Source: a virus
Reading direction: 5' to 3' (one strand)
Length of the DNA stretch: 33,722 nucleotides
Virus record (IMG/VR): IMGVR_UViG_3300037826_000280
Span: 1-33,722 of that record
Made by a program: the position numbers and the translations under genes. The notes below the pieces were generated by a model. The model was not told the DNA's origin. It made no database searches and worked only from the letters and a program-made list of their open reading frames with translations. This document shows, piece by piece, positions 2,382-30,788 of the stretch (position 1 is its first letter; every line of letters starts with the position of its first letter).

Positions 2382-2397
2382 GATAATAACTGTTATC
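2382..2397. promoter_or_regulatory. Dispersed palindrome, site 1
   Basis: The core is GATAATAACTGTTATC. With its flanks CCGTCTT and GGTACGG it is one of the best 30-bp dyads of the set. It lies between the small-RNA terminator and the 3' end of the leftward lamin-tail gene, and is the only site not just upstream of a rightward gene. Confidence 0.7.
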
Positions 2398-2404
2398 GGT
2401 ACGG

Positions 2405-3031
2405 CTACTGCCTGTCAACCTCGACGCCGGTTGCATTGTAGAGCACGGCTGCGTCGTATTCAGCGTTGTTCCATATGGTGCCTTCGAAGCCACAGCTGTA
2501 GCCTTCTCCTGTTTGTGCCCAGATCCTGAGCGTCTGACCAGCTTCTAGCACGCCGGCCAGGCCACAGCTTTGCTCTCCTTTTTCGGAGACCAGGACCCAC
2601 CCACTCAGATCCTGGGCCTGGTTGCCGATGTTCTGGATGTCGACGTATTCAGCGCGCTTGTTGACGGTGACGATCACGACGTAGGGGCCCTGGATCGGCG
2701 TCGACGTGGGTGGCAGCGGTGTTGGCGTCGACGTGGGCGGGAGCGGGGTGTTGGTGGGTGTTGGTGTCGCCGGCTCGGGAGTCGACGTAGGCCGCGGCGT
2801 AGCCGTGGGGGTTGGCGTATTGGTGGGGAGCGGGGTAGCAGTCGGTGTCGAAGTGGCCGTTGGCGTTGGTGTTGGCGTTAGGGTTGGCAAGATCCCGATC
2901 TCTCGGAGGGTCATATCGACCATTCCGATTAAACAACAGACGGTACATCCCATAATCGCCAGAAGAGCAAGAATGACGAGAACAGCCCGACCTGGTCGAC
3001 GTTTGATCAGCTCCTTGAGCTTGTTGAGCAT
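2405..3031 (-). CDS. Membrane-anchored lamin-tail-domain protein with Thr/Pro linker
   Basis: This is a 208-residue surface protein. Residues 1-12 are basic (KELIKRRPGR near the start), followed by a transmembrane or lipoprotein-like segment at about 15-37. Residues 49-113 are a low-complexity Thr/Pro linker built of TPTPT-like units. The C-terminal domain (about 115-208) has the lamin-tail (LTD) pattern: EYVDIQNIGNQAQDLSGWVL, a Cys pair and a WNN loop near the end. LTD domains are immunoglobulin-like folds found on bacterial surface proteins and nucleases. It is leftward, downstream of the repressor, so it is probably expressed in the lysogen and could be a surface-modifying (conversion) protein. 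No Shine-Dalgarno site is visible; a hairpin lies 13 bases before the start. Confidence 0.8.
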   Translation of the reverse strand: MLNKLKELIKRRPGRAVLVILALLAIMGCTVCCLIGMVDMTLREIGILPTLTPTPTPTATSTPTATPLPTNTPTPTATPRPTSTPEPATPTPTNTPLPPTSTPTPLPPTSTPIQGPYVVIVTVNKRAEYVDIQNIGNQAQDLSGWVLVSEKGEQSCGLAGVLEAGQTLRIWAQTGEGYSCGFEGTIWNNAEYDAAVLYNATGVEVDRQ

Positions 3032-3043
3032 AGGTATCGATGA

Positions 3044-3060
3044 GCGGTCTTAGAGACCGC
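3044..3060. repeat. Perfect 7-bp inverted repeat upstream of the lamin-tail gene
   Basis: GCGGTCT-TAG-AGACCGC lies in the 37-base gap between the small leftward gene and the lamin-tail start. It has no T-run on either side, so it is more likely an operator or a translation-controlling hairpin than a terminator. Confidence 0.55.
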
Positions 3061-3068
3061 CGCCCTCC

Positions 3069-3242: not shown

Positions 3243-3280
3243 TGTGCCTCCCGAAGTTGTAGGGGGCACTCCTTGCCTGT

Positions 3281-3637
3281 CTATGCCGTGGTGTGGGCGG
3301 CGGTCTCTTCGTCCTGTTGGAGAAGGAAAGTCAGGTACTCCTCTAGCAACTGGCGACGTTCCGGCGATAGCTGGTTGATCATCCAAAGCAGACGGCGGAG
3401 CCGGCCAGTTTCAGAAGGCTCGGGAGGTAATAGCCCGGCTTTGCGGAAAACGCTTTCCGGCGGATAGTTAAACGCTTTTGCTAGACCCAGGCACAACTCA
3501 GGGCCGGGGTTGCGATCACCGTTGATGACATGGGATAGCCCGGATTGGCTCAAGTCAGCACGTCTGGCCACCTCTCGCAGTGACCATCCGCGCTCTTCTG
3601 CTTCTTTGAGAATCCATTCTCCGATATCTTCAGGCAT
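3281..3637 (-). CDS. XRE-family repressor (probable lysogeny regulator)
   Basis: This 118-residue protein has a Cro/C1-type helix-turn-helix at about residues 15-70: SLREVARRADLSQSGLSHVI forms helices 2-3, followed by GDRNPGPELCLGLAKAF. The C-terminal 50 residues are helical and charged, with no LexA-type Ser/Lys peptidase, so it is shorter than lambda CI. It is transcribed away from the early genes across an operator region with GATTAC..GTAATC sites, the usual position of a phage repressor. It may bind those sites; whether it also binds the related dispersed GATAA-N6-TTATC palindromes is an open question. Confidence 0.85.
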   Translation of the reverse strand: MPEDIGEWILKEAEERGWSLREVARRADLSQSGLSHVINGDRNPGPELCLGLAKAFNYPPESVFRKAGLLPPEPSETGRLRRLLWMINQLSPERRQLLEEYLTFLLQQDEETAAHTTA

Positions 3638-3652
3638 ACATTTAGTTTACAT

Positions 3653-3781
3653 CAGTAATCGCCCCCTCGGGCGATTGATTTGATTACCCTAGTAGTAAAG
3701 TATCAAATGTCACGTGTTTTATATGACATTCGTAACTTACTTACTATCACCGCAGGGGTTACACTGATTACCCTAGTAATC
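3653..3781. promoter_or_regulatory. Divergent operator/promoter region between repressor and early genes
   Basis: The 14-mer TGATTACCCTAGTA occurs twice as a direct repeat (3681-3694 and 3765-3778). The second copy is part of the perfect dyad GATTAC-CCTA-GTAATC (3766-3781), which ends 4 bases before the AGGAGG of the first early gene. A further half site GTAATC lies at 3655-3660. It overlaps a hairpin AATCGCCC/GGGCGATT (3657-3676). These look like two or three repressor operators. The region is AT-rich and must hold divergent promoters, but I cannot pick unambiguous -35/-10 pairs. Confidence 0.7.
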
Positions 3782-3796
3782 AACAGGAGGTGTCAT

Positions 3797-5001: not shown

Positions 5002-5008
5002 CCGTAGC

Positions 5009-5024
5009 GATAAGTTTGATTATC
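5009..5024. promoter_or_regulatory. Dispersed palindrome, site 2
   Basis: GATAAGTTTGATTATC with left flank CCGTAGC lies between the coiled-coil gene and the integrase. Its right edge abuts the AGGAGG of the integrase gene. Confidence 0.7.
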
Positions 5025-5035
5025 AGGAGGAAAAT

Positions 5036-6154: not shown

Positions 6155-6161
6155 AAGGAGA

Positions 6162-6227: not shown

Positions 6228-6230
6228 ATA

Positions 6231-6428: not shown

Positions 6429-6447
6429 ACCTACCATTGGAGGTTTT

Positions 6448-6804
6448 ATGAGCGATTGGTCACCTGATCGAGCAGCGGAAGCGGCGCCGGTGGTGCTGGA
6501 GGTATTCAAGCGCTGGCGGAAGAGTCGCAATGCGCTGAGCCGGCAGGATCTCGTCGGGATGACGGGGTTGAGCGATCGGCTGATCCGCTCGGCTATTGCG
6601 GAGCTCCGCCGGCAAGGATACTTGATCATCGCCGATGAAAACGGCGGTTACCGGTTCGCTCGATCCGTGGACGAGGTCCTCGCCTACACAGCTTCACTCA
6701 AGAGCCGGGTCGATGCGCTCCGTGAGGTCGTTACGGCGATGGAGTCGGCTGCAGAGGATCAGTTCGGCTCGGGATCGTTGGCTCAGCAGATGTCGATGTT
6801 CTAG
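6448..6804 (+). CDS. Winged-helix DNA-binding protein
   Basis: This 118-residue protein starts at ATG 6448 behind TTGGAGG. Residues 30-75 form a winged helix: LSRQDLVGMTGLSDRLIRSA is helix 2-turn-recognition helix, and ELRRQGYLIIADENGGYRF is helix 4 plus the wing. A C-terminal helix (about 80-105) could dimerise. The pattern is like the HTH domains of phage replication or transcription modulators. It is a candidate binder of the dispersed palindromes, one of which follows its stop codon directly. Confidence 0.75.
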   Translation: MSDWSPDRAAEAAPVVLEVFKRWRKSRNALSRQDLVGMTGLSDRLIRSAIAELRRQGYLIIADENGGYRFARSVDEVLAYTASLKSRVDALREVVTAMESAAEDQFGSGSLAQQMSMF

Positions 6805-6807
6805 GTA

Positions 6808-6822
6808 GCTAATGGGATTATC
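6808..6822. promoter_or_regulatory. Dispersed palindrome, site 3 (15 bp)
   Basis: GCTAATGGGATTATC lies between the winged-helix gene and the Gre-like gene, followed by GGAACAGG. It is the only copy with 5 rather than 6 bases between the half sites. Confidence 0.6.
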
Positions 6823-6839
6823 GGAACAGGAGGTGGCCG

Positions 6840-7052: not shown

Positions 7053-7104
7053 CACTATTGTAGCAAGGATCGAGCGTTTCGTACCCATAGATCTGGAGGA
7101 TTCG

Positions 7105-7434: not shown

Positions 7435-7654
7435 GGCCTGGGACAAGGTCCGGTCGCTGGAGGATATCCAGGCGTTGCTGGCGTCGGTCGATGCACGGCG
7501 AAAGCTGATCCGGACGCACGCCTGGCGGGAGGGGTCCTGGGACGTGGTCTTTGCGGAGGCTACGGTGATGCGCGATGAGCTCGAAGCATTACGCGAGCGC
7601 TTGACGGAGTGCTGGGAGGACCTGGTCGGAGACGCACGTGGGCAAGGAGCCTAG
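7415..7654 (+). CDS. Small helical protein of unknown function
   Basis: This 79-residue protein starts at ATG 7415, overlapping the membrane-protein gene by 20 bases. It is mostly helical and charged (EDIQALLASVDARRKLI; RDELEALRERLTECWEDL), so a coiled coil is likely. No family is recognised. Its end overlaps the GTG of the DUF6011-ParB frame by 17 bases, consistent with translational coupling along the operon. Confidence 0.6.
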   Translation: MTNSHTEAWDKVRSLEDIQALLASVDARRKLIRTHAWREGSWDVVFAEATVMRDELEALRERLTECWEDLVGDARGQGA

Positions 7655-9929
7655 ATGCGCCGTATGCGGCCGGCCCCTCCGGTCGCCGGAGAGCATCGCC
7701 GCCGGCGTAGGGCCCGTGTGTGCCGGCAAGCGTGGTCGTGGTGGTAGATCAATTGGTGGTGGGTCGCGGGGGTTACCGCGGGGTCTATTCTATCTGAATC
7801 ATCAGGAGGAATCGATGGACGGTATTGGGGTCGACTTTATTGGGGTCAACGGAGAGGTGGTCGTAGAGGGCAGCCTGCGGCGCGTACCGATAACACGGAT
7901 TACCACGTCAAGGTGGCAGCCTCGGGAGCCGATCTTTGACGGCGATGCGCTATGGGAGTTGGCCAAGAGCATCAAGGAGCAGGGGCTGATCAACCCGATC
8001 GTGGTCTTCCAATCGGGAGAGACGGAGTTCGGCGATCCGCTATACGAGCTCGTCGCCGGCGAACGGCGGACCCGGGCCGTGATGGGCATCGTCTGGGCAG
8101 CGTGGGACGACGATCAGACGTCGGAGAAGGACGCCGTGATGAGACTGGCGGCGGAGGGCCTCGAGGCCGTTCCGATGCCGGCGCTGATGCAGATCCACGA
8201 GGCGGGGGTGACGATCCTGGCCAGGGTCGAGTCGGGGGAGGATCTGAGCCGGCTCCACCAGCTGGCGGTGATCGAGAACATTGAGCGCCAGGGGCTGACG
8301 CCCCTCGAGGAGGCGCGCGCGCTCCACGGCCTGCAGCAGGAGCTGGAGCTTTCCCAGCGGGATCTCGCAGCTCGGATCGGCAAGAGTCAGAGCTACGTCG
8401 CCCAGCGGCTCTCCCTCCTCGGCCTGGCCGAGGAGGCCCAGGAGGGCGTGAGTACTCGCGTACTCAGTGCGACACACGCGCGAGCTATCGCGCGGGTACC
8501 GAAGGAGCTGCAGCCGGACTTCGTGGAATGGACCACGAACGCGATCTCGCGGAGCGACTCGCCGGCGACGACGCGCCAGGTCCAGAACCGCGCGCGCGAG
8601 CTCGCGGCCTTCGTCGACCCCGACCGGTGGCTGCCCAATGGGGAGAGGGTCTACAAGCCGCAGGATCGTAACCGGTTGGCGCTGATCCGCACGCTGCTGA
8701 CCTGCGGCGGCGTCGACGTGGCCGAACACGGCAAAGATCTCCTGGGCCTAATTGCCGTTGGATGGGGAGATCACAACATATTGGCCAAGAGCCCGATCAA
8801 GGTGGTGCAGACGTATAACTTCATGCAGGCGGTTCTGGAGGCCCTGGGCTATTCTGGTCACACTCAGACGGTGTGGGACGATACAGCTCCTATGATGGGT
8901 CGAACGTGTTCGGAGTGCCTCTTCTACGGGGTCGATGTGGACTATGAGATACCCAGCCAATGGGAGCCCCATTGTAATCGAATGAAGGGTCACGATACGC
9001 TGGCCACGTGCCAGAACTTCATCGGCGTCGAGGATCCCGTTGCGATCCCGTTGGAGGTCTTTGATGTGCGCTGGTACAAGAAGGCCGGCGTCGACGTTGT
9101 CGAGGACCCGTTCCCGCATATGTCCTCGGTCAGCGCGTACGTGAACGGACTGCAGCTGGCCATTGAGCAGAAGAAGCAAGCGGAAGAGGAGGAGGATCGA
9201 AGGAAGGCTCAGAAGCATTTGGAGCCGATGAAGATGTATGTGGATTGGGTGACCAATCGTCCGAAAGAGGATCTCCGACACTTCCAGGCGCACTCCTGCT
9301 TTAAGTGTGTCCACTACGTCGCGAGCCTGGGGGAAGATCCTGAGGCCATTCCCTGCCGGTTCGCCCTCGATCCCCTGACGGACCATAGAGGCGGTAGCCG
9401 CGCGCCGAAGTATGGCGTGTTAGTGATGCGGGACGGCACGGTCCTCCCGCGGTGTGAGATGTTCTCCTACCGGAACATGCCCTTCATCGCACGAGAGGTA
9501 GGTGTCGAGCTGCCGGTCGATCGACGGATGGTGGTGGAATGGCTCCATGCTCTGGCGACAACCGGACACTACGCCACCGACGATCACAACGTGATATGGG
9601 GCGTCCTCCGGTGGTTGAACTACGGGCGATCGGGGAAGGGGAACGATTACGACAAGCTCAAGCGATACTTGATCGACAAGTGGGACGATCTCGGGGGAGA
9701 TGGGGCGATCTGCACGCTCCTCAACGTGGTGCTGAGCGAGGGCCGGCTCCGGAATGGCCGGGCCACTATGCCGGCAACGCTGTTCAACGCGGCAACCAAC
9801 AACCCCGAGGAGTTCGCGTTCATCGGATTCGACGAAGCCATTGGAGAGAAGCCAGTTTGGAGCTGGGTAGCTGATAGGTGGCCAGACGATTGGCCACGGC
9901 CGTGGGAGGATCACAGTGTTGAAGATTGA
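7638..9929 (+). CDS. ParB-like nuclease-domain protein with N-terminal DUF6011 zinc knuckle
   Basis: The open frame of 763 codons starts at GTG 7638. Residues 6-32 are a DUF6011-type zinc knuckle (CAVCGRPL, then GVGPVCAGK). A second start, ATG 7815 with AGGAGG 7 bases upstream, would give a 704-residue ParB alone, so two products are possible. The ParB/sulfiredoxin-like domain lies at about residues 80-180 (SRWQPREP, KEQGLINPIVVF, ELVAGERRTRAV). The ParB helix-turn-helix follows at about 205-280 (TPLEEARALHGL, RDLAARIGKSQSYVAQRLSL). Unusually, the long C-terminal half carries two further Cys clusters, near residues 424-454 and 554-605. Phage ParB-like proteins may partition plasmid-like prophages, regulate transcription or act as nucleases; which applies here is unknown. 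Confidence 0.85.
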   Translation: MGKEPRCAVCGRPLRSPESIAAGVGPVCAGKRGRGGRSIGGGSRGLPRGLFYLNHQEESMDGIGVDFIGVNGEVVVEGSLRRVPITRITTSRWQPREPIFDGDALWELAKSIKEQGLINPIVVFQSGETEFGDPLYELVAGERRTRAVMGIVWAAWDDDQTSEKDAVMRLAAEGLEAVPMPALMQIHEAGVTILARVESGEDLSRLHQLAVIENIERQGLTPLEEARALHGLQQELELSQRDLAARIGKSQSYVAQRLSLLGLAEEAQEGVSTRVLSATHARAIARVPKELQPDFVEWTTNAISRSDSPATTRQVQNRARELAAFVDPDRWLPNGERVYKPQDRNRLALIRTLLTCGGVDVAEHGKDLLGLIAVGWGDHNILAKSPIKVVQTYNFMQAVLEALGYSGHTQTVWDDTAPMMGRTCSECLFYGVDVDYEIPSQWEPHCNRMKGHDTLATCQNFIGVEDPVAIPLEVFDVRWYKKAGVDVVEDPFPHMSSVSAYVNGLQLAIEQKKQAEEEEDRRKAQKHLEPMKMYVDWVTNRPKEDLRHFQAHSCFKCVHYVASLGEDPEAIPCRFALDPLTDHRGGSRAPKYGVLVMRDGTVLPRCEMFSYRNMPFIAREVGVELPVDRRMVVEWLHALATTGHYATDDHNVIWGVLRWLNYGRSGKGNDYDKLKRYLIDKWDDLGGDGAICTLLNVVLSEGRLRNGRATMPATLFNAATNNPEEFAFIGFDEAIGEKPVWSWVADRWPDDWPRPWEDHSVED

Positions 9930-10829: not shown

Positions 10830-11060
10830 ATGAGGATAGGACCGTTGATTTTGCTTGAAGGAGACGCAATAGCCGCGTGGCATTGGAAGTGGTCCATTAC
10901 GTGGCGGTGGGTGTTCTACTGGAGCCCCTACAGGCGAGATATGAACGTCGGGTTTTCGCGATTCAAGACGAACGGCGGCGTGATCCTACGGTTGACCTTG
11001 CCGGTGTTGGGTCATTGGGGACTGCAAACACAGAAGAATATGAGGCGAAAGCGACGGTAG
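10830..11060 (+). CDS. Small Trp-rich protein, possible paralogue of the gene at 10157
   Basis: This 76-residue protein starts at ATG 10830 with GGAGAGAG upstream. It contains AWHWKWSITWRWVFYW, a run of alternating Trp resembling that of the 60-residue gene upstream, followed by a basic beta-rich part and a KNMRRKRR tail. No family is recognised. A palindrome site follows its stop codon. Confidence 0.55.
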   Translation: MRIGPLILLEGDAIAAWHWKWSITWRWVFYWSPYRRDMNVGFSRFKTNGGVILRLTLPVLGHWGLQTQKNMRRKRR

Positions 11061-11061
11061 T

Positions 11062-11077
11062 GATAATGGCCGTTAGT
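11062..11077. promoter_or_regulatory. Dispersed palindrome, site 4
   Basis: GATAATGGCCGTTAGT with flanks ACGGTAGT and TGTACGG lies between the Trp-rich gene and the HTH/Cys gene. Confidence 0.65.
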
Positions 11078-11099
11078 TGTACGGAAAGGCGAGGGTACC

Positions 11100-13474: not shown

Positions 13475-13511
13475 GAGGATGTTCTGCTCCAGGTTCGCGC
13501 TGAATGGTATC

Positions 13512-13527
13512 GCTAACGCCGATTATC
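13512..13527. promoter_or_regulatory. Dispersed palindrome, site 5, upstream of the late promoter
   Basis: GCTAACGCCGATTATC, followed by AGGACGG, ends 23 bases before the -35 box of the consensus promoter at 13551. That is a position suited to activation or repression of late transcription. Confidence 0.7.
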
Positions 13528-13550
13528 AGGACGGTTGTGAGTCCTCCGAT

Positions 13551-13674: not shown

Positions 13675-14010
13675 GTGGACGCTGTTATGGACGTCTTGCA
13701 GTGGGTGCTGGAGCACATCGAGGAGATCGCGCTGTTGGGCGCGTTGGTCGTCACGATCATCGACGGTGGGCTGAAGAAGGCGCGAGCTGTCGCCGTCTCG
13801 TTGATGCTGGAAGCGGAGAAGGTCGCCCAGCACGAGGTGGAGCTCAGTGGGCCTGAGAAGATGCAGCGGGTGTTGTCCGACCTGGTCGACCGGCTTCCCG
13901 TGAACGTCAAGGCGGTTCTGAAGGCGCTGGCCACCCTGCGAGGCCAGTCGCTTGAGGAGACGATTGCCGACCTGGCCCAGCGTTGGTACGATGCTGCTGT
14001 CAATGCCTGA
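13675..14010 (+). CDS. Holin-like membrane protein
   Basis: This 111-residue protein starts at GTG 13675, 7 bases after AAAGGAGG. There is one N-terminal transmembrane segment (about residues 15-30, EEIALLGALVVTIIDGG), followed by a helical cytoplasmic part (LMLEAEKVAQHEVELSGPEK, KMQRVLSDLVDRLP). One N-terminal helix followed by an AEK..SGPEK segment resembles phage holins of the LLH type. It is first in the late operon and precedes a second small membrane protein and the endolysin, a normal holin position. Confidence 0.6.
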   Translation: MDAVMDVLQWVLEHIEEIALLGALVVTIIDGGLKKARAVAVSLMLEAEKVAQHEVELSGPEKMQRVLSDLVDRLPVNVKAVLKALATLRGQSLEETIADLAQRWYDAAVNA

Positions 14011-14017
14011 TCCAGGT

Positions 14018-14230
14018 ATGGCCAACATCATCGAACTGATTGCGAGTGCCGGCGGAACGTTGGGGCTCGCCGTCTTTGCCATTTGGATGCTCAATAAGAC
14101 CTGGGAACTGCGCATCGAGGAGGTCAAGCGATACGCAGACTCGTTGCGAGATATGAACTGCCAAATGCGGGAGGTCATAGAGCGAAACACTGAGGCTTGG
14201 ATGAGGATGTTGGAGCGGGTCGATGGCTGA
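14018..14230 (+). CDS. Second small membrane protein, BhlA/UviB-like holin candidate
   Basis: With the ATG at 14018 this is a 70-residue protein; an ATG at 14003 would add five residues and neither start has a clear ribosome site. One transmembrane helix (about residues 5-24, SAGGTLGLAVFAIWML) is followed by a charged amphipathic helix (RIEEVKRYADSLRDMN, REVIERNTEAW). The size and layout match BhlA/UviB-type holins. It overlaps the amidase gene by 8 bases. Confidence 0.55.
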   Translation: MANIIELIASAGGTLGLAVFAIWMLNKTWELRIEEVKRYADSLRDMNCQMREVIERNTEAWMRMLERVDG

Positions 14231-14864
14231 TCAGGATCTGATCACGGTCGCCGGCATCACGGCGCGAGCATTGCGAGAGCTGGCTGCGACGTTGGAGAAT
14301 GAGATCGCCGCGGTCGACGACGAGCAGCAGCCCTTCATCGTCGACCTGGTTGGCCAGCTTCCCACGAATCGATCCCCGGATCATCCCTACCTGGTGCAGC
14401 GCGGATGGTCCTGGTGGCGCCTCCGGAAGTCGGAGGAAGTCACCGGGATCACTATCCATCACACGTTGAGCCACTCGCCCGAGGCCACGGCCGCGTATTG
14501 CTCGCGGCCGGTGAGCCAGGGTGGGAAGGGTTACCCCTCTATTCAGTACAATTACTGGGTTTCCGCCGGCGATGAGTGCACGATCTACAAGTGTGCTCCT
14601 GTCTCCTGGGCTCTCTGGCACGATCATACCGGTGCCAATCCGACGACAATCAGCATCGGTATGGCCGGCCACCTCCACACTCATAAGCCGCCGGCGGAGC
14701 AGATCGACGCCACGGCACGGTTGGTGCGGTGGCTGATGGATAGCCTGGGTTTGGAAGAGGACCAGGTTCAGGGGCATACAGACCGGTACGCCGGCACGAT
14801 TTGCCCAGGATGGTATCGGGCGCGTTGGAAGGGCGATTTCTTTGAGGCGCTACGGGGGACGTAG
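14223..14864 (+). CDS. N-acetylmuramoyl-L-alanine amidase (endolysin)
   Basis: This 213-residue protein starts at ATG 14223. The Amidase_2/PGRP fold covers about residues 70-205. The zinc-ligand His pair is in GITIHHTLS (near 77-80), the substrate-groove part includes QYNYWVSAGDE, and the second His and the Cys ligand are in GHTDRYAGTICPGW. It cleaves the amide bond between MurNAc and L-Ala in peptidoglycan to release virions. There is no signal peptide, so it depends on the holin-like proteins encoded just upstream. The N-terminal 60 residues are a helical extension of unknown role. Confidence 0.9.
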   Translation: MADQDLITVAGITARALRELAATLENEIAAVDDEQQPFIVDLVGQLPTNRSPDHPYLVQRGWSWWRLRKSEEVTGITIHHTLSHSPEATAAYCSRPVSQGGKGYPSIQYNYWVSAGDECTIYKCAPVSWALWHDHTGANPTTISIGMAGHLHTHKPPAEQIDATARLVRWLMDSLGLEEDQVQGHTDRYAGTICPGWYRARWKGDFFEALRGT

Positions 14865-15436: not shown

Positions 15437-16985
15437 CGCCGTCTTCGCCAGGGTGTGGCGGGAGGGGATTGTCCCCGGGCCACATCAGTACGAAATGGCG
15501 AAGAGGGTAGACGATAGCACGTTACAATACCAGGCCGACTTCTGGCCGCGAGATCACGGCAAGAGCGAGATCTTTTGTCTCGCTTATCCGCTACGTTTGA
15601 TCTGCGAAGATCCGAACATCCGGATCTTGATTGTGCGGAAGACTGCAACGGAAGCGGAGAAGACCGTCTCCGTCATCAAAACGGAGCTCGAGCGCAACGA
15701 GGAGCTGAAAGCGTATTACGCTCCGCACTGGGAAGAGACAGTTGGTCATCGTGATATCTCCAATGCCACGGGGACAGTCGAGCGGGAGGGACGCCGGGAG
15801 GGCGCCTGGCAACGCCGGCGGATCTACGTCAAGCGGACCAGGCGCGGGACGGACCCAACGCTCGAGGCGGTTGGCGTTGGCGGGGCGATCACGGGCGGCC
15901 ATTATGACGTGATCATCTTGGATGATGTAGAAGACGACGAGAATACCAAGACAGAGGCGCGCTTGAGGTCGCTTCTGGAGTGGTTGATGGGCACCATTAT
16001 GCAGCTCAGGGAGCCCCATACAAAGATCGCGATTGTGGGGACGCTGAAGACTGCACAACCGGACATTTACAATTTCGTTCTCAATAACCCAATGTGGTCG
16101 TGTAGGGTCGAGTCGGCGATCAAGCGGCCTCGTCTCGATAATATACATTATGACGTCATCCACAACGACGAGGGCCGAGTGGTCGACGTGGTCGTCCACA
16201 ACGAGGAAGAGATCGAGGTCCTCTGGCCGGCTAAGTGGCCGATTAAGGCCCTGTTGCTGGATATGCTGGCCAGCATCCGGAGCATATGGATCAGGGAGAA
16301 GCTGAACGATCTCCGAGCGCTGGCAGGGTCGATCTTCAAGCGGACGTGGTTTTCTTACAAGCCGCGTGAGGAGCTCCCCCGCGTCTTCGATCAGATCGTA
16401 CAGGCATGGGACACAGCCTTCGAAGACACGGATGCGGCAGACTGGAGCGTATGCGTTACGGTTGGCCTGGCGGCCGGCAAGGCCAACATCCTCGACGTCT
16501 TTCGGGACAAGCTGGAATTCTGGGCCCTTCCGCAGGCGATCAAGCGGCAGTATACCAAGTGGCGCCCGGAGGTGGTCCTGGTCGAGAAGAAGGCCAGCGG
16601 CCGGTCTGCGATCCAGGTCCTGCAGAAAGAGACGACACTTCCGATCGTTGCCGTGAAGCCGGATGGGAAAGACAAGGCGGCTAAGGCGCGATCGATCACG
16701 CCGTTCTATGAGAGCGGCCGGGTGGTCCACGTGGCCGGGGCGTCGTGGCTCGACGTCTTTGAAGACGAGCTCACGATGTTTCCGAAGGGAGCCCACGACG
16801 ACCAGGTCGATGCGTTGGTGTACGCGCTCCTCCGATTGTTCCTGGAGGAGATCCAGCAAATGAGCTCAGCACAGATCGACTGGTACGCCCAGACGGGCGC
16901 TCAGGTCGAATCGGCGGCGCCGGCGAGGACTGAGGACGAAATCGAGCGGTTACTAGAAGAGGCGGCGGTAATCAATGAGCGTTGA
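15369..16985 (+). CDS. terL: Terminase large subunit (packaging ATPase-nuclease)
   Basis: This 538-residue protein starts at ATG 15369. The ATPase domain has a Walker-A-like loop PRDHGKSE (near 60), a Walker B DVIILDDVEDDEN (near 180) and a coupling motif IAIVGTLK. The RNase H-like nuclease domain has its acids in QAWDTAFED (near 347), VLVEKKASG (near 400) and GAHDDQVDALVYAL (near 478). All expected acids are present. It pumps DNA into the prohead through the portal encoded by the next gene. Confidence 0.95.
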   Translation: MRRQRQSDARWRKKLRAVARRDSAVFARVWREGIVPGPHQYEMAKRVDDSTLQYQADFWPRDHGKSEIFCLAYPLRLICEDPNIRILIVRKTATEAEKTVSVIKTELERNEELKAYYAPHWEETVGHRDISNATGTVEREGRREGAWQRRRIYVKRTRRGTDPTLEAVGVGGAITGGHYDVIILDDVEDDENTKTEARLRSLLEWLMGTIMQLREPHTKIAIVGTLKTAQPDIYNFVLNNPMWSCRVESAIKRPRLDNIHYDVIHNDEGRVVDVVVHNEEEIEVLWPAKWPIKALLLDMLASIRSIWIREKLNDLRALAGSIFKRTWFSYKPREELPRVFDQIVQAWDTAFEDTDAADWSVCVTVGLAAGKANILDVFRDKLEFWALPQAIKRQYTKWRPEVVLVEKKASGRSAIQVLQKETTLPIVAVKPDGKDKAAKARSITPFYESGRVVHVAGASWLDVFEDELTMFPKGAHDDQVDALVYALLRLFLEEIQQMSSAQIDWYAQTGAQVESAAPARTEDEIERLLEEAAVINER

Positions 16986-18204: not shown

Positions 18205-18214
18205 CATCCGTATC

Positions 18215-18230
18215 GATAAGGGCGATTATG
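18215..18230. promoter_or_regulatory. Dispersed palindrome, site 6
   Basis: GATAAGGGCGATTATG with left flank CCGTATC lies between portal and Mu-F genes. Its last three bases are the ATG of the Mu-F-like gene. Confidence 0.65.
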
Positions 18231-19238
18231 CCGACAAATCCGCGTGACCAGATCCTGCGGTTGGCCACCAGGAACAAGCGGTTCCTGGACCGGCTCGATC
18301 TGCAGATGACGCGAGAGGTCAACAAGGCCTATGGCGCGGCCAGGCGGGAGCTTGTCGGCTTGATTCGGGAGCGGCGCGCGGCGCTGCTGCAGGGGACATT
18401 TCGGGGCGAGCGGTCGACACGAGAGCGTGAGCTCGCCCGTGACGTCACACTTTTACAACAGATCGAGGGGCGTCTAGCGACCCTCACTGAAGAGACGGGT
18501 GGGATCATTCAGACGAGCTGGGATGAATCGATCTCCTACGCCAACGAGTTGAGTGAGGAGGAGATCGCCGCGGTCCTCGAGGGCCTCGACGCCGATCAGG
18601 TTGTGGGGTTGCCGGGGATTGGGGATCTGCGGTTCAGCACCTCGATGATCGACTTCTCCGCGGTGGAGATCGGCCTCGAGGAGTCGCTGGCAGCGATCCA
18701 GCAGAGCCAGGCCCAGACGGCGCGGGTCCTGCGGACGGAGCTCAGGACCGGGCTGTTACGCGGTGAGTCGTTCGACGATCTAGTCAAGCGACTGATGGCG
18801 GCGAACGGAAGCGTATTCTCGAGAGGGAGGCTCTCAGCGCTGCTTGGGGCCCGCCGCAACGTGATCTATGCCAACAACGGTAGCCGTCAAGCCTGGTATG
18901 AGTACTGGGGTCAGGAGATCCCCGGCCTCGAGAAACAGGCCGTCGCGGCGATCGACCAAGATACGACGAACTGCTGTTTACGGGTTCACGGACAGATCCA
19001 ACCGTTGGGTGATCCCTATGAGCTGAAGGGTACGCCGCGGTTCGCGCCGAAGATTGCATTCCCTCCGTTTCACTGGAACTGCAGGACGTCGTCGACGGCT
19101 TACCATCGAGATTTCGAGCGGGGAGCCCAGGTCACGACGACCGATATGCGAAGGGCCGCCCGGGCGGAGATCCGGGCCCGGCGAGACGGAAGCCGGGAAG
19201 AGATTCACCCAGCGCACGCAACGAGTGGGAGAGGATAG
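18228..19238 (+). CDS. Mu-F-like minor head protein (SPP1 gp7 type)
   Basis: This 336-residue protein starts at ATG 18228. The N-terminal 200 residues are mostly helical. The C-terminal third is the Mu-F domain: an RNVIYANNGSRQAWYEYWG segment, then DTTNCCLRVHGQ and FPPFHWNCRTS, with the Cys and His that mark the fold. In SPP1 and Mu the equivalent protein is a minor capsid component bound to the portal and involved in DNA ejection and head assembly. No normal Shine-Dalgarno is seen; palindrome site 6 occupies the space before the start. Confidence 0.88.
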   Translation: MPTNPRDQILRLATRNKRFLDRLDLQMTREVNKAYGAARRELVGLIRERRAALLQGTFRGERSTRERELARDVTLLQQIEGRLATLTEETGGIIQTSWDESISYANELSEEEIAAVLEGLDADQVVGLPGIGDLRFSTSMIDFSAVEIGLEESLAAIQQSQAQTARVLRTELRTGLLRGESFDDLVKRLMAANGSVFSRGRLSALLGARRNVIYANNGSRQAWYEYWGQEIPGLEKQAVAAIDQDTTNCCLRVHGQIQPLGDPYELKGTPRFAPKIAFPPFHWNCRTSSTAYHRDFERGAQVTTTDMRRAARAEIRARRDGSREEIHPAHATSGRG

Positions 19239-19558
19239 TGGATCCTATCAAGGTTGATGTTTATCTGTTGGACCACGTCAAGGTCGGAGCGTTACGCTTC
19301 GGATGCAGCGAGATTGACGATTTGCGAGACGGTGATCAGAAACTCAACGGGTGGATCAAGTGCAATGATCTTCAGGTCCTGGTTGATCGGGATCTAGCTG
19401 ATGACGTCAAGGTCGTCACCGTATGGCACGAGATCCTTCACGGGCTGATCGAGCAAGCCGGATTCGACGATCACGACGAGCGGTTGATCACCGCACTGTC
19501 GTTTGGGCTTCATCAGGTACTAAAGGACAATCCCGACTTGGTCGGGTTGTATCGCTAA
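19238..19558 (+). CDS. HEXXH putative metalloprotease in the head cluster
   Basis: This 106-residue protein starts at GTG 19238, overlapping the Mu-F stop by one base, with GAGAGGA upstream. The motif VWHEILHGLIEQ (near residues 66-77) is a HEXXH zinc-protease helix. A second acidic/histidine stretch, DDHDERLITAL, follows about 10 residues later and can supply the third ligand. It resembles minimal ImmA/IrrE-like peptidases. It sits between the Mu-F and scaffold genes, where many phages encode the prohead protease, so a role in scaffold or capsid processing is possible. That would be an unusual fold for the job. Confidence 0.75.
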   Translation: MDPIKVDVYLLDHVKVGALRFGCSEIDDLRDGDQKLNGWIKCNDLQVLVDRDLADDVKVVTVWHEILHGLIEQAGFDDHDERLITALSFGLHQVLKDNPDLVGLYR

Positions 19559-19569
19559 CGTGGATTATG
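19554..19569. promoter_or_regulatory. Dispersed palindrome, site 7
   Basis: GCTAACGTGGATTATG overlaps the TAA stop of the HEXXH gene and precedes the first copy of the 25-bp repeat by 5 bases. Confidence 0.6.
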
Positions 19570-19574
19570 CCTTC

Positions 19575-19599
19575 CGTGGCGTAGCACGTAAAAAACGAA
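19575..19599 (+). repeat. 25-bp direct repeat, copy 1 (before scaffold gene)
   Basis: An exact 25-bp sequence, beginning CGTGGCGTAGCACG and ending with TAAAAAACGAA, lies 10 bases before the scaffold ATG. The first 14 bases form a small hairpin CGTG-GCGTAG-CACG followed by the A-run. The second copy is 574 bp downstream, before the capsid gene. Confidence 0.8.
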
Positions 19600-19609
19600 G
19601 GAGGTTGTA

Positions 19610-20148: not shown

Positions 20149-20173
20149 TCGTGGCGTAGCACGTAAAAAACGA
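20149..20173 (+). repeat. 25-bp direct repeat, copy 2 (before capsid gene)
   Basis: This is identical over 25 bp to the copy at 19575-19599. It begins 5 bases after the scaffold stop and lies 44 bases before the capsid ATG. Exact identity in non-coding DNA suggests recent duplication or strong selection. Confidence 0.8.
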
Positions 20174-20217
20174 ATGGGGCGTGAGAAACAACCCAATCAG
20201 ACGAGGAGGTAGTGAAG

Positions 20218-21907: not shown

Positions 21908-21916
21908 GGCGGTCGT

Positions 21917-21932
21917 GATAATGGGAGTTAGT
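21917..21932. promoter_or_regulatory. Dispersed palindrome, site 8
   Basis: GATAATGGGAGTTAGT, preceded by GGTCGT and followed by TATACG, lies directly before the carbohydrate-binding/connector fusion gene. It includes the GGGAG that may serve as its ribosome site. Confidence 0.65.
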
Positions 21933-21938
21933 TATACG

Positions 21939-22751
21939 ATGACAGAACGAAACCACCTCTCGAACGGCCGTTTCCTACACGATCTCGATAACTGGGTGGC
22001 CAGCGGTGCTGAGTACAGCGCCGGCGATGGCGATGACCATTACGGCGTCGCTGTGTTGAGCACTGGCGGCGACTACGTCGAGCAGACATTCAGCGTGGCC
22101 CGAGTACGCGCGTACTCACTGCACGTCGCGGTCAAGGCGGTGGGCGGTGATCTGTCGGGGTCGAATGTGGTGGCTACGATCACCGACGGCGATGGGAACA
22201 CGGTCACCGAGCAAGATCTGAGTGGGACGGCCGATACCTGGACCGAGACCACAGTGAGTATCGGCCTAGCCAGCGGCACAACCTACATCTTACGGATCAC
22301 CAACAACGACGCCGGCCGGGACGTGAAGATCGACGACGTGTGGATCTGGCACGTTCCGATCACGCGGGCGGCGCTCGCGGCCCGCGTGTCGACGAAGTTG
22401 GCTAGGCTGGCCAGCGATCGGAGTCTGACCACCACCGCCAGCGGCTCCCTCACTGAAGGAGACTACACCTACGCTGTGGATGCAGGACTGCGGGCGGTGA
22501 TGGCGATCAACCCTGAGACCGGGGATCCTGATATCCGGTATGTGGGACCTGGAGACGTCAACATCGTCATCGATGCCGTCGAACGACAGATGCTGGAGCG
22601 CCTCCGAAGGGATTATGCGGTCGAGGTCGATCTCCAGCTGGGGCCGCGGCGGGAAAGTCTTTCGCAGATCAGCAAGGCGATCGGGGAGCTCACCGGAGGC
22701 GAGGGGAGTGAAGGACGCCGGCCGGAGGTGCGGAGGTTGTATCACGAATGA
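21939..22751 (+). CDS. Head-tail connector with an N-terminal CBM-like domain
   Basis: This protein of about 270 residues starts at ATG 21939; ATG 21921 is an alternative. Residues 5-145 have the layout of a CBM_4_9-type carbohydrate-binding jelly roll: NGRFLHDLDNWVASG, YVEQTFSV, DTWTETTVSIG and DVKIDDVWIW at the end. The C-terminal part (about 150-270) is helical with a repeated TRAALAARVSTKLARLA segment, ending in RRPEVRRLY, and resembles gp6-like head-tail connectors. A sugar-binding module fused to a connector is unusual; it may project from the neck. Confidence 0.65.
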   Translation: MTERNHLSNGRFLHDLDNWVASGAEYSAGDGDDHYGVAVLSTGGDYVEQTFSVARVRAYSLHVAVKAVGGDLSGSNVVATITDGDGNTVTEQDLSGTADTWTETTVSIGLASGTTYILRITNNDAGRDVKIDDVWIWHVPITRAALAARVSTKLARLASDRSLTTTASGSLTEGDYTYAVDAGLRAVMAINPETGDPDIRYVGPGDVNIVIDAVERQMLERLRRDYAVEVDLQLGPRRESLSQISKAIGELTGGEGSEGRRPEVRRLYHE

Positions 22752-23080
22752 CTAGCGGATTTTCACGGATGGCCACGACCACGGCCAGCACGAAGCGGTC
22801 ACCGGCCGCGGTGGATGGGAAGATCGGAGAGATGGAGACAAATCTCACCGGGCTTTCGATTGTGCCATTGATGCCGGTCGATCCGGACACGGTGCAGGAT
22901 CTGCCGCTGCGATCACCTCGGGAGGCGAAGCAGACGTTTGTCGAAGGTTTGCTTGATATCGTAGAGGGGGATCGGCTTGTTGTTGATTCGACTGAGTACG
23001 TGATCCGGTCGGCTGCAGAGTGGGACGGCGCTCGGGGGGACTTTCTCCACCTGGTCGTCGAGGAGTTGAAAGCGTCGTGA
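22748..23080 (+). CDS. Head-closure / head-tail joining protein
   Basis: This 110-residue protein starts at ATG 22748, overlapping the previous stop as ATGA. It is a small beta-barrel-like protein: LPLRSPREAKQTFVEG, VEGDRLVVDSTEYVIRSA and a final LHLVVEEL strand fit head-closure (Phage_H_T_join) proteins that seal the connector after packaging. The first 30 residues are flexible. The assignment rests on pattern and gene order. Its stop codon lies in palindrome site 9. Confidence 0.7.
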   Translation: MTSGFSRMATTTASTKRSPAAVDGKIGEMETNLTGLSIVPLMPVDPDTVQDLPLRSPREAKQTFVEGLLDIVEGDRLVVDSTEYVIRSAAEWDGARGDFLHLVVEELKAS

Positions 23081-23094
23081 CAATCGGGCTTATC
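23079..23094. promoter_or_regulatory. Dispersed palindrome, site 9
   Basis: GACAATCGGGCTTATC followed by GGTACGG, the same right flank as site 1. It overlaps the TGA of the head-closure gene and precedes the gp10-like gene. Confidence 0.7.
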
Positions 23095-23104
23095 GGTACG
23101 GTCA

Positions 23105-23479
23105 ATGATTGAAGACGCTGAGATCCGTGGATTGCAAGAGACCCAGGCGCGGCTAGAGCGGCTCCTGGAGAAGATCGGCGCGGGGCCCGGGCTTCGGTCG
23201 ATCATTGCGCGGGCGGTGCTGAGAGCTCACCGGTACACGACGATGATCGTGCACGTGCTCAGCGGCCGGTTGAAGAACAGCCTCTTTCCGCGGGTGACCG
23301 GACAGGTCAACCAGGTGTATGGTGTGGTAGGTACGAACGTGGCCTATGCTCCTTACGAGCACCAGCGGGGCGGCAGTCACGCGTTCTTTGACCGGACCGT
23401 TAAAGAGGATGGTCCGGCGATTGTGAGGCAAGTCGAGCAGGACGTGGCTCGTGAAGTGGATCGGGCCGGAGGAGGCTAG
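23105..23479 (+). CDS. HK97 gp10-like neck / tail-completion protein
   Basis: This 124-residue protein starts at ATG 23105. The pattern SGRLKNSLFPRV, then VYGVVGTNVAYAPYEHQRGG and HAFFDRTV, is diagnostic of HK97 gp10 proteins, with the conserved YA-x-x-x-E-x-G turn and the aromatic FF near the end. These proteins sit at the head-tail joint. The gene starts 11 bases after palindrome site 9 and ends one codon before the next start. Confidence 0.85.
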   Translation: MIEDAEIRGLQETQARLERLLEKIGAGPGLRSIIARAVLRAHRYTTMIVHVLSGRLKNSLFPRVTGQVNQVYGVVGTNVAYAPYEHQRGGSHAFFDRTVKEDGPAIVRQVEQDVAREVDRAGGG

Positions 23480-24234: not shown

Positions 24235-24242
24235 GGTAGGCT

Positions 24243-25444: not shown

Positions 25445-25450
25445 AAGATA

Positions 25451-25518: not shown

Positions 25519-25552
25519 GAGGACCAACTGGAGGAGGTTGGCTCTATGACGC

Positions 25553-25568
25553 GATAAGATCGATTATC
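25553..25568. promoter_or_regulatory. Dispersed palindrome, site 10
   Basis: GATAAGATCGATTATC is a nearly perfect dyad, with AGGACGG on its right acting as the apparent ribosome site of the tape measure gene. Confidence 0.7.
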
Positions 25569-25579
25569 AGGACGGGAAC

Positions 25580-27751: not shown

Positions 27752-27758
27752 TCGTCGT

Positions 27759-27774
27759 GATAATCGATGTTAGC
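27759..27774. promoter_or_regulatory. Dispersed palindrome, site 11
   Basis: GATAATCGATGTTAGC followed by GAAACGG lies between the tape measure and Dit genes, 13 bases before the Dit start. Confidence 0.7.
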
Positions 27775-27787
27775 GAAACGGTGAGTT

Positions 27788-29689
27788 ATGAGCGGTGATC
27801 TGACAATCGTATCGTGGGATGGAAACAATATCAACGACGGTTCGAATTACCGGGCCGTCTTCCGGCCTGGGTTGGCTTGGGGATTACCAGGTGTACGGAC
27901 GCGCCAGGTCCGGCGCGCCGGCGGCTGGCCGGTGGCCAGCGGCATCGAGCGGCCTGGCCGCCAGCTGGTGATGTTGGTGACCATCCTTGACACGGCGAAT
28001 CTGCGCACGCGCCGCGACGAGCTCCTCCGCTGGTTTGACCCAGAAGATGAAGAGTCTAAACAATTAGTCATCGAGGACAGCGACGGTAGTGACGATCGGT
28101 ACGTCTACGCGATCTGCGAGGAGTTCAAGCCCCGGGTGATCCGCGGCGTGGCCAGCAAAGTGGCCTTTATGGTGCTCCTCACCATCGATGGAGACGTGCG
28201 ATGGCGGTCGACCAGTGAGACGTCCGACAGCTGGAGCATTACAGCTACCGGGCAGACCAACACGATCACCAACGGTGGATCTGATGATGCATATCCCACG
28301 TTCGAGCTTACTCCCACCTCGGCCAAGACTGGCGGCTACGCATACCGCGAGTTCTGGTCGGTCACGTGGCGCTCAGACAATCCGGGCACGCGGTATCCGC
28401 TGCGTCTGGGTCCTATCGATACCGCAGCGCTCATTACGGCCGGGAAGATGCAGGTTGACGGGGATGATCTACGGGTGTTCATCGACGGAGTCGAGATTGA
28501 TCGATGGATGGTTGATATCAACACGGCCAACACCTACGTCTGGATCAACGCTGATTTCCAGCCTCAGCAATCAGGCACACTCAAGACAGCGATCGCGTCC
28601 AGTGGCACGATCTCGTCGATTGAGTTCGAGGATGACGAGGACATCAGCGGGCTACCGCAGTCGGGATTGGTGCGGATCGATGACGAGCTATTTGTATACG
28701 CGAACAAAAGCGACGCTGATCGTGAGTTGACGGGGATCACTCGAGCTGCGAAGGGCACCAGCATGGCGGCTCACACGGCTGGCGATACGATTTCCTGGAT
28801 TCAGCGTGAGATCCAGGTTGTCTACGGCAACTCGTCTGTGAGCGCTCCGGACGTTGATGACGACTACAAGCCGATGTTTGTATTGGGGTCAAGCACGAAC
28901 GTTCAGTGGTATTACACCTCGTTCGGCGACGGCAATGGGAAGCGAGCAGCTCGGTGGGGTCGCTGGGGGAATGTGACGACTGATGGTCGCGGTGGTGTCT
29001 ACACCGCTACTCAACGAACGCTGGCCGATCCTTACACTGTTGCCGGCGCCTGGCTAGACGAACTGCATGGTAATGCATACGGATGGTACTTAGAAAATCC
29101 GTGTGGGATTGTGAACGTTGCCTGGGCAGACGGCTTTAAGAGAGCCGAGACAAAAGAGGATTTCCTGGTACACCTGATGTACTGGGTGCGGGATGCGGGG
29201 TGGTGGACGTGGCAGGCGACCCTGGCAGATCCATCGGCTGATAACACGTGGGAGGCCTGGTCGCAAGCTGCAGCTGGGTCGGACTGGGATCCGGCGGACC
29301 AAGTTGCAATTGGGGCATATTTCAACGCTCAGGATGTTGAAGTTGGCACCGCAACGGTTGACCTGAACTCGTCTGAGACGCCGGATCTTCTGGCGTGTGG
29401 CGAACAGGGCAATTACAGGTTGTCAGCGACTATCACCAACAACGACACAGGACAGGCGATCACTGTTGACTTTGATATGGATCTCAATGAGACGTTGATC
29501 ATCAACACCGAGGACGAAACGGTGGAGTACGATGCTGATGGAACCCGGCAGCTGCAGGCGGTAGAGACAGTTGGAGGAGTGCGGCAGTACTGGCTTCCGC
29601 TGCAGCCTGGAGACAACGAGCTTCAATTCGATGACACCGGTACGGCCGGACTGACGTTTGTCACGAAGTTCAGGGAGCGATCCTACTGA
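27788..29689 (+). CDS. Distal tail protein (Dit) with a large internal insertion
   Basis: This 633-residue protein starts at ATG 27788. Residues 1-140 follow the Dit N-terminal domain (DLTIVSWDGNNIND, LVMLVTILDTANLRTRRDEL). The last 70 residues (NETLIINTEDETVEYDADG, then YWLPLQPGDNELQFDD) match the C-terminal strand pattern of the Dit galectin-like domain. Between them about 370 residues are inserted. They include a module SGLVRIDDELFVYANKSD with GITRAAKGTSMAAH, common in phage tail proteins, and a Trp-rich part that could bind sugars. This is an evolved Dit, larger than the classical 250 residues, probably able to touch the host surface. Confidence 0.8.
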   Translation: MSGDLTIVSWDGNNINDGSNYRAVFRPGLAWGLPGVRTRQVRRAGGWPVASGIERPGRQLVMLVTILDTANLRTRRDELLRWFDPEDEESKQLVIEDSDGSDDRYVYAICEEFKPRVIRGVASKVAFMVLLTIDGDVRWRSTSETSDSWSITATGQTNTITNGGSDDAYPTFELTPTSAKTGGYAYREFWSVTWRSDNPGTRYPLRLGPIDTAALITAGKMQVDGDDLRVFIDGVEIDRWMVDINTANTYVWINADFQPQQSGTLKTAIASSGTISSIEFEDDEDISGLPQSGLVRIDDELFVYANKSDADRELTGITRAAKGTSMAAHTAGDTISWIQREIQVVYGNSSVSAPDVDDDYKPMFVLGSSTNVQWYYTSFGDGNGKRAARWGRWGNVTTDGRGGVYTATQRTLADPYTVAGAWLDELHGNAYGWYLENPCGIVNVAWADGFKRAETKEDFLVHLMYWVRDAGWWTWQATLADPSADNTWEAWSQAAAGSDWDPADQVAIGAYFNAQDVEVGTATVDLNSSETPDLLACGEQGNYRLSATITNNDTGQAITVDFDMDLNETLIINTEDETVEYDADGTRQLQAVETVGGVRQYWLPLQPGDNELQFDDTGTAGLTFVTKFRERSY

Positions 29690-30771
29690 TGGCGATGGAA
29701 GTGTTGATCGGTGACCGATTTGGTCGAGTTATTGCCGAAGTCCAGCCGGAGGTGGGGCCCCTATCGTGGCGCTTGAATCTGGTTGGAAAGACCACCCTGA
29801 CGTTCTCCCGATCCGATGACAAGGCGATCGAGGAGAATCTGCGCTATGGCAATCGCGTGCTGGTTCGCTTCGATGAGGGTCTCGGTTTGCCAGTGTGGGG
29901 TGGAACGATCGAGCCACCACGGGAGTGGACTCGCAGGGAAATCACGGTTACCTGTCGATCGATCGAGTGGACGCTGCAATACCGGCAGACGAAGAAGACC
30001 AGGTCCTTTTGGAGCACGCCAGTGGGGAGCATTTTTTACCAAGTTTTGCAAGAGATGGAGGAGCGCGAACCGATCGGGCTTCAGTTCGGACGAATCTGGA
30101 CAGGAGGTGGGCAACATTCACCTCGATATCATTTCAAGAGCATATGGTGGATCTTGACCCAATCGCTGCGATCGATGGAACAGTGTGATTTCAGGTTTGT
30201 GCCCCAACTGGCGGATGGAAAGATTACGTTCCTGGCCGAGATGTATGAGCGGCTGGGAGAAGACAAATCGGGGCGGTTTCATTTCAAAGAGGGTATGAAC
30301 ACTCACCCGGTGCGTTACACGGAACAGGGACCTATCGTAAACGAGTTCACGGCGATTGGATCGGGAGCGACCTGGGGAAAGGAGCGGCCGACACGGTCCG
30401 CCGTGGTCGACGAGAGCCGGCGGCTATATGGTCTTCGGCAGGACAGCAAGATCTTCTCGGGTGTTGTAGAATCAACGACTCTTGATCGGCACGCGTCGAC
30501 TCACGTTGAACTGCACGCTGCAGGAAACTCACGGTTGAAGCTTCGAGCAGTGAACAAGGCGCCAGCTACATTTGCTCAATACAATGTAGGAGACTCTCTT
30601 CGATGCGTTTTACCCAGCATCAAGTTTAGCGGATACGACGAGCGCGTGCGAATCTTGTCCCGCCAATATTCAGAGTCATCGGGGGATTGTGAGCTAGTCG
30701 TCGAAGAGGAAAGCGACTGGCGGGCGAAGTTTGCCGGCACCGGTGCGGAAACGACCCAAGAGGAGCTGTAG
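29689..30771 (+). CDS. Baseplate hub / tail-associated protein (gp37-like)
   Basis: This 360-residue protein starts at ATG 29689, overlapping the Dit stop by one base. The N-terminus (EVLIGDRFGRVIAEV, then LVGKTTLTFSRSD and NRVLVRFDEG) and GGTIEPPREWTRREITVTCR follow siphovirus ReqiPepy6 Gp37-like and related hub proteins. The C-terminal region carries repeated beta strands (HASTHVELHAAGNSRLKL, YNVGDSLRCVLPSI) typical of the hub's OB-like domains. No protease or lysozyme domain is fused. Gene order tape measure, Dit, hub, fibre supports the call. Confidence 0.75.
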   Translation: MAMEVLIGDRFGRVIAEVQPEVGPLSWRLNLVGKTTLTFSRSDDKAIEENLRYGNRVLVRFDEGLGLPVWGGTIEPPREWTRREITVTCRSIEWTLQYRQTKKTRSFWSTPVGSIFYQVLQEMEEREPIGLQFGRIWTGGGQHSPRYHFKSIWWILTQSLRSMEQCDFRFVPQLADGKITFLAEMYERLGEDKSGRFHFKEGMNTHPVRYTEQGPIVNEFTAIGSGATWGKERPTRSAVVDESRRLYGLRQDSKIFSGVVESTTLDRHASTHVELHAAGNSRLKLRAVNKAPATFAQYNVGDSLRCVLPSIKFSGYDERVRILSRQYSESSGDCELVVEEESDWRAKFAGTGAETTQEEL

Positions 30772-30772
30772 C

Positions 30773-30788
30773 GATAATGAGCCTTATC
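30773..30788. promoter_or_regulatory. Dispersed palindrome, site 12
   Basis: GATAATGAGCCTTATC with flanks CTGTAGC and GATAGGG. It spans the first possible ATG of the fibre gene (30777), so a bound protein would also cover the translation start region. Confidence 0.7.

Follow-up and report, generated by a model that had tools for sequence, protein, structure and literature searches.

Dispersed dif-like sites at the gene junctions of a tailed phage and their candidate phage-encoded recombinase

Introduction

Phage genomes are mosaics whose borders lie between genes. How this gene-border mosaicism arises is a long-standing question, and the usual answer is illegitimate or homeologous recombination followed by selection. 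Short conserved sequences, called boundary or linker sequences, are known from module borders in phage mosaicism, and mycobacteriophages carry stoperators, which occur in many copies in short intergenic gaps and are diversified between phages. In this study, a dispersed 28-bp dyad with the geometry of a dif site was analyzed in the IMG/VR record IMGVR_UViG_3300037826_000280 (33,722 nt; the whole stretch is here referred to as the window) and in related phages, together with Int2, a tyrosine recombinase encoded in the same genome and the most likely enzyme of these sites.

Sites of similar build are found in Acinetobacter, where pdif sites have an 11-6-11 layout with ATAA-N6-TTAT, occur many times per replicon, and have mostly different spacers (PMC13141974, PMC11705084). 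The crossover takes place within the site, identical or nearly identical spacers are needed, and a pair of matching sites delimits the module that is replaced (PMC13141974, PMC11705084). Another phage protein that combines a tyrosine-recombinase fold with dispersed sites is MrpR (YopR) of SPbeta, which has lost key catalytic residues; its sites in the prophage, SPBRE, consist of a 15-bp motif at regulated promoters, i.e., PaimR and PyosX (PMC10516654). Lastly, a report on phage-borne integrons describes recombinase sites that flank phage genes and occur as imported cassette clusters (PMC9892861).

Results

The original prediction for the window listed twelve dispersed palindromes, eleven of 16 bp and one of 15 bp (at 6808), with an outward extension to a 30-bp dyad, and proposed a matrix scan as a check. 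Every one of the twelve sites is present and the extension holds. Alignment of the eleven 16-bp copies gave two 11-bp arms (consensus CGTMNYGATAA on one side, its complement on the other) that flank a 6-bp centre almost without common sequence. A half-site matrix derived from these copies and run as a dyad with a 6-bp spacer found 13 matches above 20 bits in the window, the next best match scoring 9.9, and the top score in 20 Markov shuffles was 15.9; other spacer lengths gave no comparable set in the window. The window thus contains 13 strong copies of CGTMNYGATAA-N6-TTATCRNKACG and one 15-bp variant, 14 sites in total (Table 1), whereas the relics suggested at 7786 and 24834 were not among the 30 best matrix matches. 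A first, generic dyad count was set aside, since it was dominated by codon bias. With near-symmetric 11-6-11 arms and ATAA-N6-TTAT, the sites have the layout of Xer/dif core sites and differ in this from repressor and parS sites.

The sites are spaced evenly, with a mean distance of 2184 bp and a coefficient of variation (CV) of 0.29, compared to 0.91 when sites are placed at random, and not one of 5000 such placements was equally regular. Twelve of the 14 lie outside gene interiors, where 2.8 were expected, which bears out the predicted preference for gene junctions and resembles the placement of stoperators in short intergenic gaps. A role as RNA hairpin was rejected, since the arms do not compensate each other: both arms have A or C as their second base, and no copy combines C2 with G15. 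An Rfam search gave no match. A role as promoter operator was rejected as well, because sigma-70-like promoters are not enriched upstream of the sites; downstream, a weak enrichment was seen (p=0.04).

Relatives were gathered by TerL and by Int2 queries, after which the full contigs were read; gene calls were heuristic. Dispersed sites are carried by 11 genomes including the window, at 6-20 sites per genome, and these sites have a common build, arms of their own, and spacers of 6 or 7 bp. The counts are 10 in G004, 9 in G007, 16 in G010, 18 in G015, 16 in G016, about 19 in G017, 17-18 in G018, 16-17 in G023, 6 in G025, and 8 in G026. The arms differ among the phages, also inside one TerL family. 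Examples are AGTATCRRTAA in G010 and G018, GTTTCGGTAA-like arms in G016 and G017, CTGGGGATAA in G007 (where the spacer is 7 bp long), and two distinct types, AGGCRCAATAA and TCGTCYCATAA, in G004. Some of the expectation-maximization motif outputs for phages without sites were low-complexity noise. Regular spacing is found in 9 of the 11 genomes (CV 0.25-0.39 compared to about 0.9 for random placement, p<=0.0014). In the genomes with N6 spacers, A at spacer position 1 and T at position 6 each occur in one of 125 sites. The sites mostly point one way in G004 and are mixed in G010 and G018, and strict C/D alternation was not seen.

Several correlations point to Int2 as the most likely enzyme of the sites. 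Its catalytic residues R205-E208-K231-H315-R318-H341-Y350 are intact, the seven positions are invariant in 27 alignment rows, and Int2 is more like XerA, XerC, and XerD than IntI. The int2 gene is present in all 11 phages with dispersed sites, a count that is partly built in because most of the genomes were gathered by Int2. Less circular evidence comes from the long contigs found by TerL and from the phages with a 7-bp spacer. In the former set, the window, G004, G007, and G010 have both the sites and int2, and G008 and G012 have neither. In the latter, G007, G025, and G026 form one supported Int2 clade (100/99), although the TerL of G025 and G026 is unrelated. Furthermore, G021 and G022, which contain no dispersed sites, have a single dyad with perfect 11-bp arms next to int2, 17 bp past the int2 match. 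Taken from such sequence comparisons, Int2 would bind and recombine the 28-bp sites.

The evidence for exchange at the sites comes from the relatives only, and for the window a sufficiently close relative is lacking: INPHARED contained no near relative (megablast of a 16-kb stretch gave no match), and a search with the window int2 alone gave no close relatives. Between G010 and G018, translated homology changes by a step of 36-45 percentage points at sites, compared to 14-16 at gene junctions without a site (p<=0.0004), and the effect is the same with other comparison window sizes and against shifted-site controls. A second set gathered with a portal query (G002, L152, L155, and L156) gave a step of 37.8 compared to 17.3 (pooled p<0.0003, with pairs that are not independent). 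In the G010/G018 pair, TerS-TerL is replaced between two sites (TerL 23% identity), and past the second site the portal has 86% identity. Between sites at 32621-35998 in G010 and at 13678-16809 in G018 lie multi-gene modules that are unrelated, and G018 contains an extra module between its sites at 6808 and 9083.

Some junctions place the change in relationship at the site itself. At the site with spacer TTTCGA, G016 has an L155/L156-like left side (arm 11/11) and a G002-like right side (arm 10/11, flank 0.96), and the spacer is common to all compared phages (6/6). At the TGCGGG site, L155 and L156 resemble each other to the left (0.94) but no longer to the right (0.61), and the spacer is identical. 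The terL/portal site, at which L155 equals L156 over 200 bp leftward through the spacer and the right arms are then of the G002 type (L155) or the G016 type (L156), is less clean: its right arm also codes for part of the portal, with differences that are synonymous, and all phages have the left arm in common. Over 45 pairs, which include two G010/G018 pairs matched by spacer (a slight bias) and are not independent within site families, arm similarity tracks flank similarity (Spearman 0.39, p=0.0075), with nine one-sided cases for, two against, and two ties. The spacer is still 91% identical in pairs in which both flanks are unrelated. In the relatives, this pattern is consistent with module exchange by a crossover within the site.

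The spacers follow rules of their own. Identical spacers were not found inside any one genome, and spacer pairs that differ by one base or less are rarer there than expected (6 compared to 14.5, p=0.006; 0.03 and 0.002 in less dependent subsets); for pairs with at most two mismatches no depletion was seen. Corresponding non-coding spacers of G010 and G018 are identical at 51 of 54 bases, compared to 71% at four-fold degenerate sites. Partner choice governed by overlap identity, which has been measured for pdif (PMC13141974, PMC11705084), would give such patterns, and in the relatives partner spacers appear to match and others to differ, the tendency being weaker in G016/G017.

Table 1. Positions of the dif-like sites and the two tyrosine recombinases in the window.
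Feature	Position	Strand	Support
Int1, second tyrosine recombinase, XerA/XerD-like, adjoining tRNA-Pro(CGG)	943..1929	-	sequence similarity and tRNA neighbour
dif-like site, spacer TAACTG	2376..2403	.	32.4 bits
dif-like site, spacer GTTTGA, shortly upstream of int2	5003..5030	.	29.2 bits
Int2, tyrosine recombinase, 372 aa	5036..6154	+	Pfam Phage_integrase 2.9e-24; XerC/XerA-like
Variant dif-like site, 5-bp spacer TGGGA	6802..6828	.	sequence
dif-like site, spacer CACGGA, within ParB-like gene, newly found	7883..7910	.	22.4 bits
dif-like site, spacer TGGCCG	11056..11083	.	25.4 bits
dif-like site, spacer CGCCGA	13506..13533	.	28.5 bits
dif-like site, spacer TATACA, within terL at codon ~256, newly found	16131..16158	.	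25.0 bits
dif-like site, spacer GGGCGA, 3' of portal gene	18209..18236	.	26.7 bits
dif-like site, spacer CGTGGA	19548..19575	.	20.7 bits
dif-like site, spacer TGGGAG	21911..21938	.	25.2 bits
dif-like site, spacer TCGGGC	23073..23100	.	27.8 bits
dif-like site, spacer GATCGA, 5' of tape-measure gene	25547..25574	.	27.1 bits
dif-like site, spacer TCGATG, 3' of tape-measure gene	27753..27780	.	27.7 bits
dif-like site, spacer TGAGCC	30767..30794	.	29.5 bits

Discussion

With modest confidence, we favour the explanation that the repeats are recombination sites of Int2 that serve module exchange between phages. Each repeat would be a core site with two 11-bp arms ending in TAA and a 6-bp overlap (7-bp in one clade), and modules of about 2-4 kb would lie between neighbouring sites. 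The overlap sequence would act as an address, because sites differ inside one genome and correspond between related phages. During co-infection or in a lysogen, matching sites of two phage genomes would be joined by Int2, and two events, i.e., formation of a cointegrate and its resolution, would swap a module between them, as proposed for the Acinetobacter pdif modules. The same process may be at work in the lineage of the window itself. Module exchange, most likely by Int2, is the simplest account given the geometry, the recombinase link, the border effect, the behaviour of the arms, and the spacer rules.

Several observations weigh against this explanation. Two window sites lie within genes, at 7889 in the ParB-like gene and at 16137 in terL, which also contradicts the earlier statement that none is deep in a gene; at 16137, a domain swap in the window TerL is not visible, as all pairs show better conservation of the N-part. 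G016 and G017 show no border effect, and their spacer identity (0.76) equals the neutral rate (0.77). The border effect is weak or null in most of the distant pairs and null in every comparison with the window. Around an unrelated module of G010 and G018, the spacers CACACA and TCACGA are found in reversed order, which a simple exchange between matched spacers does not fit. The phages G014, G019-G022, and G024 contain int2 and no dispersed sites. Lastly, the contigs are metagenomic and may include rare chimeric joins.

The main rival is silencing, in which the sites are bound, by Int2 or by another protein of the phage, solely to keep the prophage silent, like MrpR on SPBRE or the repressors of mycobacteriophages on stoperators. 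The even spacing, the placement at gene junctions, the phage-specific arms, and the presence of two recombinase-family genes would fit this role, SPbeta is a real precedent (PMC10516654), and module borders would coincide with sites because both prefer gene junctions. However, Int2 keeps all of the catalytic residues of which MrpR has lost the key ones, and the lack of promoter enrichment upstream of the sites does not suit a silencer. A repressor would also leave the site-specific conservation of spacers, the depletion of near-identical spacers, and the arms that follow their flanks unexplained, and homology breaks are commoner at site junctions than at other junctions. We therefore regard silencing alone as unlikely, although silencing and recombination could coexist. 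A search for a geometric match in SPbeta (NC_001884) yielded a candidate repeat at two promoters that is short, AT-rich, and not 11-6-11, and it was rejected.

The sites could also be recombined by XerC/XerD of the host, as is the case for pdif of Acinetobacter plasmids, with Int2 acting as an integrase only. ATAA-N6-TTAT is the canonical Xer core (PMC13141974), and the two arm types of G004 resemble XerC and XerD arms. This is nevertheless improbable, as the arms vary inside one TerL family, the choice between a 6- and a 7-bp spacer follows the Int2 clade, and in the single-site relatives the dyad adjoins int2. Chromosomal integration may be the task of Int1, since in both phages in which this neighbourhood was seen, the window (943-2179) and G023 (57916-59147), Int1 directly adjoins tRNA-Pro(CGG). 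The position suggests that the tRNA is the chromosomal target and that Int1 is the probable chromosomal integrase.

An equally small share of our confidence goes to the possibility that the sites bind some other factor and that mosaic exchange proceeds by ordinary homologous or Red-like recombination through short conserved stretches. Phage annealing proteins recombine diverged sequences (PMC2327257). However, the common stretches are often only about 17-28 bp long with unrelated flanks, yet the breaks occur at the site, and other gene junctions are not equally used.

The original prediction named an XRE repressor, a ParB-like protein, and a winged-helix protein as possible binders and considered stoperators or a partition centromere, and the XRE and ParB genes are both present in the window. 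Dispersed centromeres of the N15 type exist. Across the 11 site-bearing genomes, however, the presence of the three genes does not follow the sites: in whole-genome family comparisons, XRE homologs were not detected in G007, G010, G025, and G026 and ParB was not found in G007, G023, G025, and G026, and the winged-helix gene is present in 4 of the 11. With each of the three missing from several site-bearing phages, they were rejected as binders. Moreover, XRE (3281-3637, minus strand) probably has operators of its own, i.e., the GATTAC-N4-GTAATC-like elements at 3640-3790 between xre and the next, divergent gene. The element at 3766 had been taken for a near-copy of the sites; it is a different motif, and the best score in this region with the site matrix is 2.6 bits. 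The dispersed motif of G004, a circular relative, is likewise absent from the XRE promoter of that phage. The sites thus do not match the operator of the immunity repressor as stoperators would, and XRE stoperators or a ParB centromere are very improbable. A ParB/parS partition role is not supported. Overall, the earlier interpretation is partly supported: a genome-wide, phage-specific protein-DNA system stands, and its proposed binders and the partition role do not.

The window sites share with pdif the 11-6-11 ATAA-N6-TTAT geometry, the large number, and the mostly different spacers. Unlike pdif, the phage sites tile whole tailed-phage genomes, core virion genes included, at a regular spacing of 2-4 kb, and they have phage-specific arms, 7-bp spacers in one clade, no strict C/D alternation, and a recombinase that is probably phage-encoded. 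The system probably works like pdif but covers core phage genes and uses a phage enzyme. As in MrpR/SPBRE, a phage protein with a tyrosine-recombinase fold is combined with dispersed sites, but Int2 is catalytically intact and the present sites are not linked to promoters. Stoperators are short asymmetric repressor sites, whereas the dyads are 28 bp long with an information-poor 6-bp centre that is kept site by site. Unlike boundary or linker sequences, the borders described here have one type of site, recombinase geometry, and a candidate cognate recombinase. Integron attC/attI, as described in PMC9892861, are of another site type, and here the sites form genome-wide module borders. No report of a comparable arrangement in phages was found in the open-access literature, which is weak evidence of novelty, subscription papers being outside the scope of the search.

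A wider claim, which we put forward tentatively, is that the phages of one tailed family have genomes built entirely of interchangeable modules, with address-coded sites at the junctions and a phage recombinase for programmed swapping between co-resident phages, and thus possess a dedicated mechanism of mosaicism. For the question of gene-border mosaicism, this phage group offers a visible and testable alternative to the usual answer, namely, enzyme-specific sites at module borders whose spacers could define the exchangeable modules. If true, it would give a mechanistic account of modular evolution in these phages, and it could supply a new set of recombinase tools in which many overlap addresses exclude one another. 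Should the sites serve only to silence the prophage, they would still add a second example, MrpR being the first, of a recombinase-family protein whose sites are spread over the genome.

Other features of the compared genomes were recorded as well. With regard to Int1, an in-frame fusion joins the N-terminal ~37-41 residues of XRE to C-terminal portions of Int1 in the circular G004 (L017, contig 40509-40934, minus strand) and G020 (contig 22651-23430, minus strand); the fusion breaks XRE just past the recognition helix. In G016 and G026, Int1 is present as C-terminal fragments only. The isolated Gordonia phages Dmitri (L144) and Malibo (L145) have two tyrosine integrases around the immunity region, like int1 and int2; in Malibo and in the partial record of Dmitri no excess of TAA-N6-TTA was seen, and dispersed dif-like sites were not detectable. 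The ParB-like protein of the window (7638-9929, 763 aa) has DUF6011, ParB_N, and HTH_ParB domains and resembles the nucleoid-occlusion protein Noc (2e-36); no ParA was found among the families scanned in the window. L020, a TerL relative without int2, contains a ParB gene and four near-identical palindromes, AAATRCGAAAACGTTTTCGYATTT, at 12849, 15324, 17649, and 17866, which are possibly parS sites.

Among repeats of other types, the window has a 30-bp direct repeat, CGTGGCGTAGCACGTAAAAAACGAANGRGG, 93% identical, at 19575-19604 and 20150-20179 upstream of two structural genes, and L014 (G002) has an array of 66-bp tandem repeats around 476-1202. An MntA-like nucleotidyltransferase gene (267-885, minus strand) adjoins a small ORF in the window, and the two are likely a type VII toxin-antitoxin pair. 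A Lamin-tail-domain protein is encoded at 2405-3031 (minus strand) and contains a long TPTPT-type linker; linkers of this kind are frequent in Chloroflexota and would hint at the host of the window phage.

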